Origin: Halarchaeum grantii
Lineage (GTDB): Archaea > Halobacteriota > Halobacteria > Halobacteriales > Halobacteriaceae
Direction: 5' to 3'
NCBI RefSeq assembly: GCF_014647455.2
Contig: NZ_BMPF01000002.1
Span: 496,001 to 560,000 of the forward strand
Length of the DNA: 64,000 nt
Below the pieces are notes generated by a model. That model saw nothing but the letters and a program-made list of their open reading frames with translations, was not told where the DNA came from and did no database searches. Each line of letters starts with the position of its first letter. Positions within the stretch are counted from its first letter, which is position 1. This document shows positions 19,823 through 23,600 of this stretch, one piece after another. The translations under genes were made by a program, and so were the position numbers.

Positions 19823-20671
19823 TCATCGTCGGAGGAGACGACCGACGCGGCGCTCGAGCGCCAACCCGAGCCCGGACGCCTGTATCCGCTCGTCGAGTCG
19901 GCCGGCGAGCAGGACGCTCCCGACGCCGAGGGCGATGCCGGCGACGACGTCGGTCAGCCAGTGGATCCCGAGATACATCGTCGAGAGATCGACGCTCAGC
20001 GCGAGTACCGCCGCGACCGGGAACCACCGGGGGAGCGCTGCACGCGTTCGATGCGCGAGCACCGCGACGGAGACCGACAGGGAGGTATGAAGCGACGGGA
20101 AGACGTTCGTGTTCGTGTTCACCTGACTCGTGAGGAGTCGGGACTGTGGCCACGACGTGTAGAGGAGGGAGTTCACCATCTCCGGCATCAGGTTCCGCGG
20201 CCCGTAGGCGATGAAGAGGACGTAGAAGAGGAGGCCGATGGAGTAGTTGATGGCGAGCGTGAGTATGAGGTGTCGGAGCGGGCGCCGGTCGGGGAGTGCG
20301 AAGTACGCGACCAGCGGGAACACGAGGAGGAAGACGTAGCCGTAGACGTACACCGCCGAGAAGTACGCGGTAAGCGGCGGCGTGGCGAACGACTGGACCC
20401 ACGCGACGAAGCCCCCTTCGAGGGCGAAGATGGCCCCCGTGATGTTCCAGCCGATGATCCAGGAGATATCCGGGCCGACCTGTCGGGCGACCTTGTTCAC
20501 GAGGAGGACGCCCGCGAGGAGGACGAAGTACGGAAGGACCGAGCGCACCCGTCGACGAGTGTCCGCGGCCGCCGTGTAGAGCTGGGGGCGACCCACGATG
20601 GCGACGGAGCCGGTGAGAGTGAGAGCCCCGACGACGGCGAAGACGTGCAGCAGGACGTCAGCGAGCGTCAT
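19823..20671 (-). CDS. PAP2-superfamily membrane phosphatase
   Basis: A 282-residue integral membrane protein with about six helices. The PAP2 active-site motifs are visible as NVFPSLHTSLSVSVAVLAHR (the P-S-x-H-T/S element) and TMYLGIHWLTDVVAGIALGVGS (the HxxxD element), placing it among lipid phosphatases and AUR1-like transferases. It likely acts on an isoprenoid phosphate or phospholipid at the outer membrane face. Its ATG overlaps the stop of the solute-binding-protein gene by ATGA, and an LssY_C-like gene lies upstream, so the three appear to be one functional set. N-terminal PAP2 lysine/arginine motif is weak. Confidence 0.88.
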   Translation of the reverse strand: MTLADVLLHVFAVVGALTLTGSVAIVGRPQLYTAAADTRRRVRSVLPYFVLLAGVLLVNKVARQVGPDISWIIGWNITGAIFALEGGFVAWVQSFATPPLTAYFSAVYVYGYVFLLVFPLVAYFALPDRRPLRHLILTLAINYSIGLLFYVLFIAYGPRNLMPEMVNSLLYTSWPQSRLLTSQVNTNTNVFPSLHTSLSVSVAVLAHRTRAALPRWFPVAAVLALSVDLSTMYLGIHWLTDVVAGIALGVGSVLLAGRLDERIQASGLGLALERRVGRLLRR

Positions 20672-22437
20672 TGTTCGGTGAGCACCCCTTCACTCGTATA
20701 GGCGTATCCGGCGTCGCGGAACGCCTCTCGGACGGCGGCGCCGTCGAAGTCGCCGTCCGGCCCGTAGAACGAGAGCCGCGGATCGCCGTCGTCCCACGAC
20801 GGGTCGTCGGGGACCCACTCGTGGGAGAGCGGTGATGCCGTCGGTACGGCGTGGCCGTCGAAGACGTCGTCGACGAGTGCGCGCGTGTCGAGGAGCTCTG
20901 CGACGACGCGCCGGAAACGCGGGTTCGTCAGCGGAGACGTGCGGTTGTTGTACCCGACGTGGTAGAACGACCGCGACCTGTCGGAGAGCAGCGTGAGGGC
21001 GTCGTCGATCTCGACGCGCGGGACGGCGCTCGGGATGAGCGGTGTCGCAGTGGCGTCGGCATCGCCCTCGCTAATGAGCGAGACCGCCGCGGCGTCCGAC
21101 GGGGCGACGCGGACGGACAGTTCGTCGAACGCGACATCGGGGTCGAGGGGGCCGTCGACGTCGGTCACCGCGTAGTCGTCGAACCGCTCGAGCGTGATCG
21201 AGGTCCCCTCGGTGACGTCAGTGACGCGAAGCGGTCCGCTGCCGACGGGCGAGCGATTCGGCCAGACGAGCGCCTTCGTGATGCCGTCGAACTGCAAGAC
21301 GCCGGCGATGTCCGCCGGTTGGCACTTGTCCTCCCAGACGTGTTTCGGAAGGATCGGGAGGGTGAACGCACGCTCGGCGACCGCCGGTGACGCGTCGCCG
21401 CACGAGAGACGGAGCGTGTGGTCGTCGTCGACGACGACGCGATCGACGAGCGAAGTCCGCCCCCGGAACCGTGGTGCGGGGACGGGGGACTCGCGATTGC
21501 CCAGCGAGGTATCGGTGAGGAAGCGGTACGTGAACGCGACGTCGTCGGCGGTGAGCGGCTTTCCGTCGTGCCACGTGGCTCCGTCGCGTAGCTCGAGCGT
21601 CGCGGTATCACCGTCCCACGACCACGCGCGGGCTTGCCACGGGACCAGTTCCCCCCTGACGTATCGCGCGAGGGGGTCGTAGAGGAGGCCGAGAATCGTC
21701 CCGTAGCTCCGGTACTCGACCCCGAGCGGGTTGAGGTTTCGCGTCACGCGACCGTCGGTCATCGCGACGCGGAGTCGCGTCCGGCCAGCGTCCGCCGCCG
21801 CGCCGGACGCCTCGAGCGCGAGATAGCGGAGCGGCGAATCGACGGGGAAGCGATGCCAGCCCTCGAAGCGGTCCGTACGGGCGGCACCGAGGGTATCGGG
21901 GTGGGCGAGAGGAGTGAACGGCTGTTGGGACGCGATTTCGCGCTGGACGGCGGAGACGTGCGTCCGCCGCGTGCTGCCCGACGTCGAGCGCTGCGCATCG
22001 AGGTGGTCGTCGACGGTCAGGTCGGCGAATCCGAACGGGTTCTGCCAGCCGGGTTCGCCGTCGAAGGTCGAGCGGAGCAGAGAGTAGAGGAAATCGGGGT
22101 CGTATCGACCGGGGTGGCGGCCGACGTAGACGTCGAAGTCGTGGTTGATGAGGACGTCACGGTAGAGCTCGGACTCCCGCTGGAGGACGATATCGGCGTC
22201 GATGCCGCCCATCGAGAGCCGGTCGACGAGGCGTCTGGCGATGGTGGTGGCGACCGGATCGGTGTCCGCCGGAACGGTCTTGACGGAGAGGGAGACCGTC
22301 GACGGGGTGTCGCGAGTCATGAGGGCTTGCACGCGGTCGACACAGCCGGCGCTCGACGCGGCGAGACCGACACCGGTCGCGGCGAGTACCGACCGACGAG
22401 TAGCCCGCGACCCGTCGGCGTCGTCGTCCCCGCTCAT
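20668..22437 (-). CDS. Tat lipoprotein solute-binding protein (SBP family 5) with permuted halves
   Basis: A 589-residue protein. The Tat lipobox is RATRRSVLAATGVG...AGC with the lipid-bearing Cys32. Residues about 45-210 read like the C-terminal half of a family-5 solute-binding protein (TVSLSVKTVPADTDPVAT, NHDFDVYVGRH, DPDFLYSLLRSTF, GWQNPFGFADLTVDD, QPFTPLAHPD). Residues about 220-589 read like its N-terminal half (NLNPLGVEYRSYGTILGLLYDPL, LRDGATWHDGKPLTADDVAFTYRF, FYHVGYNNRTSPLTNPRFRRVVAELLD) and the protein stops just after FRDAGYAYTSEGVL, where the C-half normally begins. This is a circular permutation by sequence order. No permease or ATPase genes adjoin it; the partners are PAP2 and LssY_C genes. 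Confidence 0.85.
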   Translation of the reverse strand: MSGDDDADGSRATRRSVLAATGVGLAASSAGCVDRVQALMTRDTPSTVSLSVKTVPADTDPVATTIARRLVDRLSMGGIDADIVLQRESELYRDVLINHDFDVYVGRHPGRYDPDFLYSLLRSTFDGEPGWQNPFGFADLTVDDHLDAQRSTSGSTRRTHVSAVQREIASQQPFTPLAHPDTLGAARTDRFEGWHRFPVDSPLRYLALEASGAAADAGRTRLRVAMTDGRVTRNLNPLGVEYRSYGTILGLLYDPLARYVRGELVPWQARAWSWDGDTATLELRDGATWHDGKPLTADDVAFTYRFLTDTSLGNRESPVPAPRFRGRTSLVDRVVVDDDHTLRLSCGDASPAVAERAFTLPILPKHVWEDKCQPADIAGVLQFDGITKALVWPNRSPVGSGPLRVTDVTEGTSITLERFDDYAVTDVDGPLDPDVAFDELSVRVAPSDAAAVSLISEGDADATATPLIPSAVPRVEIDDALTLLSDRSRSFYHVGYNNRTSPLTNPRFRRVVAELLDTRALVDDVFDGHAVPTASPLSHEWVPDDPSWDDGDPRLSFYGPDGDFDGAAVREAFRDAGYAYTSEGVLTEQ

Positions 22438-22487: not shown

Positions 22488-23600
22488 TCAGAGTCCGAAG
22501 AGGGCGCGCAGGAGAACGAGTCCCCAGACGACGACCGAAGCGAACACTGCGGCCGTGGGGGTCCGCTCCGACCTCCCGGACGAGTCGGCGACGGCGGCCG
22601 CGAGGAGACCGAGCGCGAGCGCGAGCGAGACACGGTGCGTGAGGAGGCCGACGGGCGGTGCGGTGACGCCGACGGCGAGCAGGTCGAGTGCGAACGCGGC
22701 GGCCCCACCGACGGTGGCGGCGAGGAACGCCGCGAGCGGTGAAAGCGGGCGGGCGAGTCGAGCGGTCAGCCACGGGAGCACGAGCGCGAGGACCGGATAG
22801 AGCAGTGCGGCGACGGCTTTCGGTGGGACGCCCACGAACGCACCGTCGACGGCGACTGCACCGACGCGGACGGTAGCGACGAGCGCGACCGGGAGCGCGG
22901 CGACGAGCAGACCGCGACGGAGAGCGACGCGACGGAACCAGCCGAGTGAGCCGAGGAGGGGCACGGCGAAGACGACGACGGTGGCCACGCCGTCCCCGTT
23001 CACGCGACCGGCGTTCCCGAGCGAGCGGTGGGTGACGCGCGCGACGCCGGGCGTCATCCGGAGGTCGTCGGCGACCGCGGACTGCGCGGAGTCGACGCCG
23101 ACGACGGTGTGTCGGAGCCGGAACCAGTCCCAGTACTCCTCGTGGGCCTGTACCGCCGTCCAGTTCGCCGACGCGGGCGTGTAGCCCCGAACGTGGAGAC
23201 GGGACCCGAAGTACGAGCCGTCGTTCGCTTGGAACGATTCGGAGAGCCACCGTCCCGAGCCGTTCACGGCGGCGTACGTGAAACGCGTCGCTCCGTGCGC
23301 TGAGCGCCACGGGATGAGCTGTGAGTCCCCCCCGCGCTCCCAGTCGCGGTCGAGGAAGGTGCGCCGGACTCCGTCGGTATCCCCGTGAACGAGGACGTTG
23401 ACCGCGAGCGTTCGACCCGCCACCGAGCGCGTCCTGCTCGTGTACGGCCAGAGCGCGTCGTCGCCGACGTGGACGAGTGCCGCGTCGGAGGGGGCGGCGT
23501 CACCGGAATCGGCCGCGTGCGCGTCGACCGCGAGGCCGGTCAGGCCGGCGAGGGCGACGGCGGCGGCGACGACGAGCGCGAGGCGGATCGGAGCCGACAT
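22488..23600 (-). CDS. membrane protein with LssY_C-like extracellular domain
   Basis: A 370-residue protein with a signal anchor (LALVVAAAVALAGLTGLAV). An outer domain of about 160 residues (RTLAVNVLVHGDTDGVRRTFLDRDWERG, GSYFGSRLHVRGY, EYWDWFRLRHTVVGVDSAQSAVADDL) is followed by about six C-terminal helices. The outer domain resembles LssY_C, a domain that in bacteria occurs fused or adjacent to PAP2 phosphatase domains. The PAP2 gene two genes downstream supports that reading. The role is probably in envelope lipid or glycan metabolism; the exact activity is unknown. It ends 50 bases before the solute-binding gene, in the same orientation. Confidence 0.75.
   Translation of the reverse strand: MSAPIRLALVVAAAVALAGLTGLAVDAHAADSGDAAPSDAALVHVGDDALWPYTSRTRSVAGRTLAVNVLVHGDTDGVRRTFLDRDWERGGDSQLIPWRSAHGATRFTYAAVNGSGRWLSESFQANDGSYFGSRLHVRGYTPASANWTAVQAHEEYWDWFRLRHTVVGVDSAQSAVADDLRMTPGVARVTHRSLGNAGRVNGDGVATVVVFAVPLLGSLGWFRRVALRRGLLVAALPVALVATVRVGAVAVDGAFVGVPPKAVAALLYPVLALVLPWLTARLARPLSPLAAFLAATVGGAAAFALDLLAVGVTAPPVGLLTHRVSLALALGLLAAAVADSSGRSERTPTAAVFASVVVWGLVLLRALFGL

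Follow-up and report, generated by a model that had tools for sequence, protein, structure and literature searches.

The protein encoded at 20668..22437 of the window (the whole stretch of 64,000 nucleotides of Halarchaeum grantii DNA that was analysed) is almost certainly a circularly permuted family 5 solute-binding protein (SBP5), in which the C-terminal half of the canonical protein comes first and the N-terminal half second. It is an SBP5 by homology and fold, with a profile match and both halves present in one predicted fold, and it lacks two defining features of the family, namely the canonical N-to-C order and the linkage to a transporter. The following features of the locus are referred to throughout:

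20668..22437, minus strand: permuted SBP5 Tat lipoprotein, 589 amino acids (open reading frame, Pfam, hhalign, AlphaFold)
22342..22437, minus strand: Tat signal and lipobox, residues 1-32, with the arginine pair at 14-15 and Cys32 (sequence)
21802..22308, minus strand: residues 44-212, equivalent of the canonical SBP5 C-terminal half (hhalign; AlphaFold of the segment alone)
21781..21801, minus strand: residues 213-219, junction from the old C-terminus to the old N-terminus (length variability)
20671..21780, minus strand: residues 220-589, equivalent of the canonical SBP5 N-terminal half (hhalign; Pfam profile 1-284)
19823..20671, minus strand: PAP2_3 membrane phosphatase/phosphotransferase, 282 amino acids (Pfam PAP2_3, E=4e-17; adjacency)
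22488..23600, minus strand: gene X, membrane protein with an extracytoplasmic domain, 370 amino acids (no Pfam family)

Order of the halves in the window protein

The original prediction of a Tat lipobox is borne out by a twin-arginine motif and a lipobox cysteine (Cys32) in the 589-residue reading frame; R14, R15, G31 and C32 are invariant among nine homologues. It had further been proposed that residues from about 45 to 210 correspond to the C-terminal half of family 5 proteins, and residues from about 220 to 589 to the N-terminal half, ending where the C-terminal half normally starts. Profile comparison agrees on both counts. Using hhalign to compare the window family (51 homologues) with 23 canonical haloarchaeal SBP5s, we found that the first segment, residues 44-212, falls on canonical columns 358-511 (probability 99.1, E=1.7e-18). 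The second, residues 218-589, falls on columns 34-359 (E=5.7e-54), and both segments therefore meet at one seam. Controls with reversed columns, with five column shuffles, and with the PAP2 and X families all gave E-values of at least 0.14.

In Pfam searches, SBP_bac_5 (PF00496) matches residues 263-584 over profile positions 1-284 of 368 (157.4 bits versus a cut-off of 32.4), and the first segment alone matches no Pfam family. When the order was restored in a synthetic sequence (residues 211-589 followed by 46-210), a single match extended over profile positions 1-361 with 171.9 bits, a gain of 14 bits. The longer match after reordering is predicted by circular permutation. Residues 205-220, around the seam, are among the most length-variable stretches of the protein (8 to 44 residues in 51 homologues), as expected for a linker.

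AlphaFold2 predicts one compact model for the window protein (pLDDT 85.8, pTM 0.84). Compared with SBP5 structures by Foldseek in sequential order, the whole model aligns over 250-420 columns with TM 0.30-0.45, about half of a canonical SBP5, and not as a structural match in normal order, which would have spoken against permutation. The other reading that would have done so, an unrelated N-terminal domain in the first 210 residues, was ruled out by the hhalign match of segment 44-212 and by Foldseek: folded alone, this segment yields a moderate model (pLDDT 75, pTM 0.54), and its top matches are SBP5 proteins (best NikZ, E=7.8e-5). An assembly or frame artefact was also ruled out, since homologues from independent genomes, 27-53% identical, share this order. 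Among the matches listed in a sequence search, no PDB chain matched the permuted query in one piece.

Relatives of the window protein were sought in one genome per species, and 80 of the 139 found were kept. All 80 are from haloarchaea, representing at least seven families and 36 genus-level groups, and all are co-linear with the window protein. The collection of homologues, suggested earlier as a check, thus indicates that the permuted order is fixed across haloarchaea in this subfamily. In an evenly drawn sample of the class Halobacteria, 35 of 59 genomes encode an SBP of the window type.

Permuted order in the wider SBP5 family

The architecture had been thought rare for a binding protein, and this part of the original prediction did not hold. 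Permuted SBP5s, mostly with transporter genes, are also present in several other haloarchaeal subfamilies (order called from the length of the tail that follows the match to the N-half: up to 47 residues in permuted and 160 or more in canonical proteins), in another archaeal family (G181, G173) and in the Alphaproteobacteria (Nitratireductor, Maritalea, Neorhizobium galegae). The non-haloarchaeal proteins (L194:5824-7443, L195:6083-7711, L199:4492-6090, L200:4171-5880, L201:4264-5874) mostly adjoin ABC permease and ATPase genes.

Some permuted proteins have close canonical sisters. Permuted L172 resembles canonical L156 at 49% over 400 amino acids and 44% over 181, permuted L167 resembles canonical L148 at 50% and 39%, and permuted L108:13103-14743 (minus strand) resembles canonical L136 at 47% and 43%, each time with the order of the matches swapped. 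Rotation raised the global alignment score from 1053 to 1438 for L172 with L156, and from 766 to 1178 for L108:13103-14743 with L136. Judged from their sequences, the sister pairs, at 45-50% identity, are recent circular permutations. The sisters of all three pairs adjoin Dpp transporter genes. Large two-lobed receptors are seldom caught in the course of natural circular permutation, and the repeated occurrence of such close permuted and canonical sisters makes both the mechanism and the consequences of permutation testable.

A tree of rotated SBP5 sequences contains four order changes; for the canonical label, well-supported branches require four. The AU test rejects a topology that unites the permuted rows as a single clade (p=0.01). 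As the tree stems from a quick search and has some long branches, and as the group tested was named with the trait in mind, the number of permutation events is uncertain. More than one change of order in the SBP5 family is nonetheless highly probable, whether by repeated permutation or by reversion. A single ancient permutation for all permuted SBP5s, with nested canonical relatives as reversions or tree error, would accord with the quick, long-branched tree and with the cut region shared by the largest permuted clade. We consider it improbable in view of the AU test and the forced order changes, and because L108:13103-14743 has its cut point about one helix earlier than the window SBP; reversions would, moreover, themselves be repeated permutations. 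The shifted cut point fits independent events, or else a duplicated intermediate that was trimmed in different ways. On another contig, the window genome contains three tandem SBP5-type matches (G000:C3:363304-368089), and tandem arrays of SBP5 genes could feed permutation by duplication and deletion.

PAP2 and gene X as probable partners of the binding protein

Transporter linkage has been lost in the window subfamily. DppB or DppC genes adjoin the SBP in none of the 80 loci, whereas DppB/DppC-type permease genes, usually together with ATPases, were found beside other permuted SBP5s in 24 of 26 loci. The window SBP lacks the permease and ATPase in the same operon that define an SBP of an ABC importer. 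The original prediction had noted PAP2 and LssY_C membrane genes, and no transporter genes, beside the SBP; the lack of transporter genes and the adjoining PAP2 gene stand, and the LssY_C label of the upstream gene (X) does not, as its similarity is below threshold.

A PAP2_3 gene lies directly 3' of the window-type SBP gene in 78 of the 80 loci, across 36 genus-level groups. Among 92 pairs of SBP and PAP2 genes, an overlap of exactly 1 or 4 nt is seen in 58, and in 86 the genes are at most 30 nt apart; in the window, the two genes share 4 nt (20668-20671). In the class sample of 59 genomes, 50 of 51 SBPs adjoin a PAP2 gene, and independent annotation gives the same pair in Halobaculum halophilum and on plasmid pHG2 of Haloferax gibbonsii. 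The two loci without PAP2 are L034, from a species with a second copy that does have PAP2 (L033), and L105. The latter copy, from Halogeometricum pallidum (L105:9329-11740), lacks a PAP2 neighbour, no signal peptide can be recognised in its frame as called, and it may be decaying. Fused or extended PAP2 frames in a first clustering of open reading frames were discarded as artefacts, caused by open frames on the antisense strand of high-GC DNA.

The arrangement varies in some lineages. Natrialbaceae often have two consecutive SBP-PAP2 pairs (doubled pairs were listed for L041, L046, L058, L059, L063, L064, L066, L067, L073, L074 and L107), and in Natrinema the order is SBP-PAP2-SBP. Divergently upstream of SBP-PAP2, 10 of the 80 loci (L098:5225-8324, L062:6463-9784 and L203:1-2819 among them) have an arylsulfotransferase gene (Pfam match above cut-off) and a gene for a large polytopic membrane protein. 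A resemblance by eye of the latter to GT-C glycosyltransferases was not confirmed by Pfam.

The catalytic Arg/His/His/Asp residues of the PAP2_3 protein (R159, H195, H237, D241) are invariant in 28 homologues, and in the PAP2 topology the active site is on the outer face of the membrane. The conserved residues suggest that the enzyme is probably active there. The sampled genomes contain fifteen solitary PAP2 paralogues with no SBP, so an SBP is not indispensable for function in this enzyme family. Every sampled genome with a solo PAP2_3 paralogue (L182-L187, L190) has the SBP-PAP2 pair as well. A search for conserved neighbours of solo PAP2 genes, as a clue to the substrate, found none.

Gene X, which encodes a conserved extracytoplasmic domain, was found in exactly the same 35 of the 59 sampled genomes as SBP and PAP2, and was missing from the same 24 (matches were partial in G043 and G054, and fragmented in G058). 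Counts of three-gene presence and absence ignore phylogeny, as does the significance of the two-gene co-occurrence (Fisher p=5e-17). X is linked to the SBP locus in 27 or 28 loci, and about 24 of the 35 genomes carry it at a separate site, so linkage does not explain the co-occurrence of the three genes; among 14 unlinked copies inspected, no conserved neighbours were found. In G059, the SBP is separated from X and PAP2, and all three are kept. Presence also varies within genera g4, g25 and g33, with the three genes changing together, which argues against simple shared ancestry as the explanation. An LssY_C identity for X was rejected for want of an above-threshold match: LssY_C (PF14067) was not found above cut-off in three X homologues or in the window genome, and the best score in 40 genomes, from the X homologue of G030, was 18.6 bits versus a cut-off of 25.

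Very probably, the three gene products (SBP, PAP2 and X) function together as one unit. That transporter linkage has been lost is an observation; that the subfamily has left transport is the best explanation of it, and one towards which we lean. The window SBP might instead still serve an ABC importer with permease genes elsewhere, with PAP2 and X in an operon of convenience. The fold and the pocket-bearing halves are intact, DppBCDF genes accompany related permuted SBP5s, and SBP5 and Dpp genes are numerous in haloarchaeal genomes. Continued service in import nevertheless seems unlikely, given that DppB/C genes are never adjacent and PAP2 almost always is, and that the match in three-gene presence and absence survives the unlinking of X.

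Proposed function and comparison with known systems

We moderately favour an envelope module of three components, whose lipoprotein binds a substrate on behalf of PAP2 or X and no longer takes part in ABC import. Such a module would be widespread in haloarchaea and unstudied, masked by the annotation 'ABC transporter substrate-binding protein'. It would be located at the outer surface of the haloarchaeal membrane. The SBP, an anchored binding protein, may hold a phosphorylated substrate (or product), either lipid-linked or from the envelope, by its hydrophilic part, and may control, gate or feed the PAP2_3 phosphatase/phosphotransferase, with X as a membrane partner. The module might serve to recycle or remodel intermediates of the prenyl-phosphate or glycolipid type. 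Hints of envelope lipids or glycans come from PAP2_3 itself, from the arylsulfotransferase and polytopic protein pair in a minority of loci, and from the precedent of LpqW (see below).

These proposals differ in how far they can be trusted. In its general form, that the SBP handles or gates the PAP2 substrate, the idea is rather probable. That the SBP presents a lipid-linked substrate to PAP2 is a tentative suggestion. Equally speculative is the fuller picture of a binding-protein-dependent lipid phosphatase/phosphotransferase, in which the permuted SBP5 would present an extracytoplasmic phosphorylated lipid-linked substrate to PAP2 with an LssY_C-like membrane partner; permutation, having arisen several times, would have produced proteins free to be anchored anew and withdrawn from transport. 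The SBP could also be a sensor lipoprotein that signals an outside ligand to PAP2 or X and does not handle the enzyme's own substrate. Orphan SBPs are commonly receptors, and here the SBP is membrane-anchored next to X with its conserved extracytoplasmic domain; with no transducer or kinase conserved among the neighbours, we regard a sensor role as doubtful.

Compared with the SBP5 family at large (PF00496; OppA, DppA, NikA, AppA), the window protein has both halves homologous in sequence and predicted structure, and shares the lipoprotein or secreted state; it differs in its swapped halves and in the lack of an adjacent ABC transporter. No report of permuted family 5 binding proteins was found in the open-access literature searched, which is weak evidence, as subscription papers were outside the scope of the search. 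A natural circular permutation of an anchored binding protein is shared with TpMglB-2 (Tp0684), which binds glucose in Treponema pallidum. This lipoprotein has a Type I / Cluster B fold, with about 100 residues moved and ABC transporter genes alongside (PMC4990184). The moved parts of TpMglB-2 share only about 13% identity, and the authors of that study proposed that a change of topology may be favoured when the protein is anchored (PMC4990184). Permuted and canonical SBP5 sisters, in contrast, reach 45-50%.

The proposed module also resembles two systems outside import. Bacterial LssY-type proteins have the architecture DedA-PAP2-LssY_C. They likewise combine PAP2 with LssY_C, to which one X homologue has sub-threshold similarity; unlike them, the window module consists of separate genes, DedA was not found beside them, and an SBP is added. 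LpqW (PDB 2grv) is among the Foldseek matches of the C-half of the window SBP only; its halves are presumably in canonical order, and to our knowledge it has no PAP2 partner. This mycobacterial SBP5-fold lipoprotein is reported to channel lipid intermediates that carry mannose, with PIM4 directed towards lipomannan (PMC3229680). By analogy, the window SBP may likewise be an SBP5-fold lipoprotein that routes envelope lipid intermediates rather than serving import.
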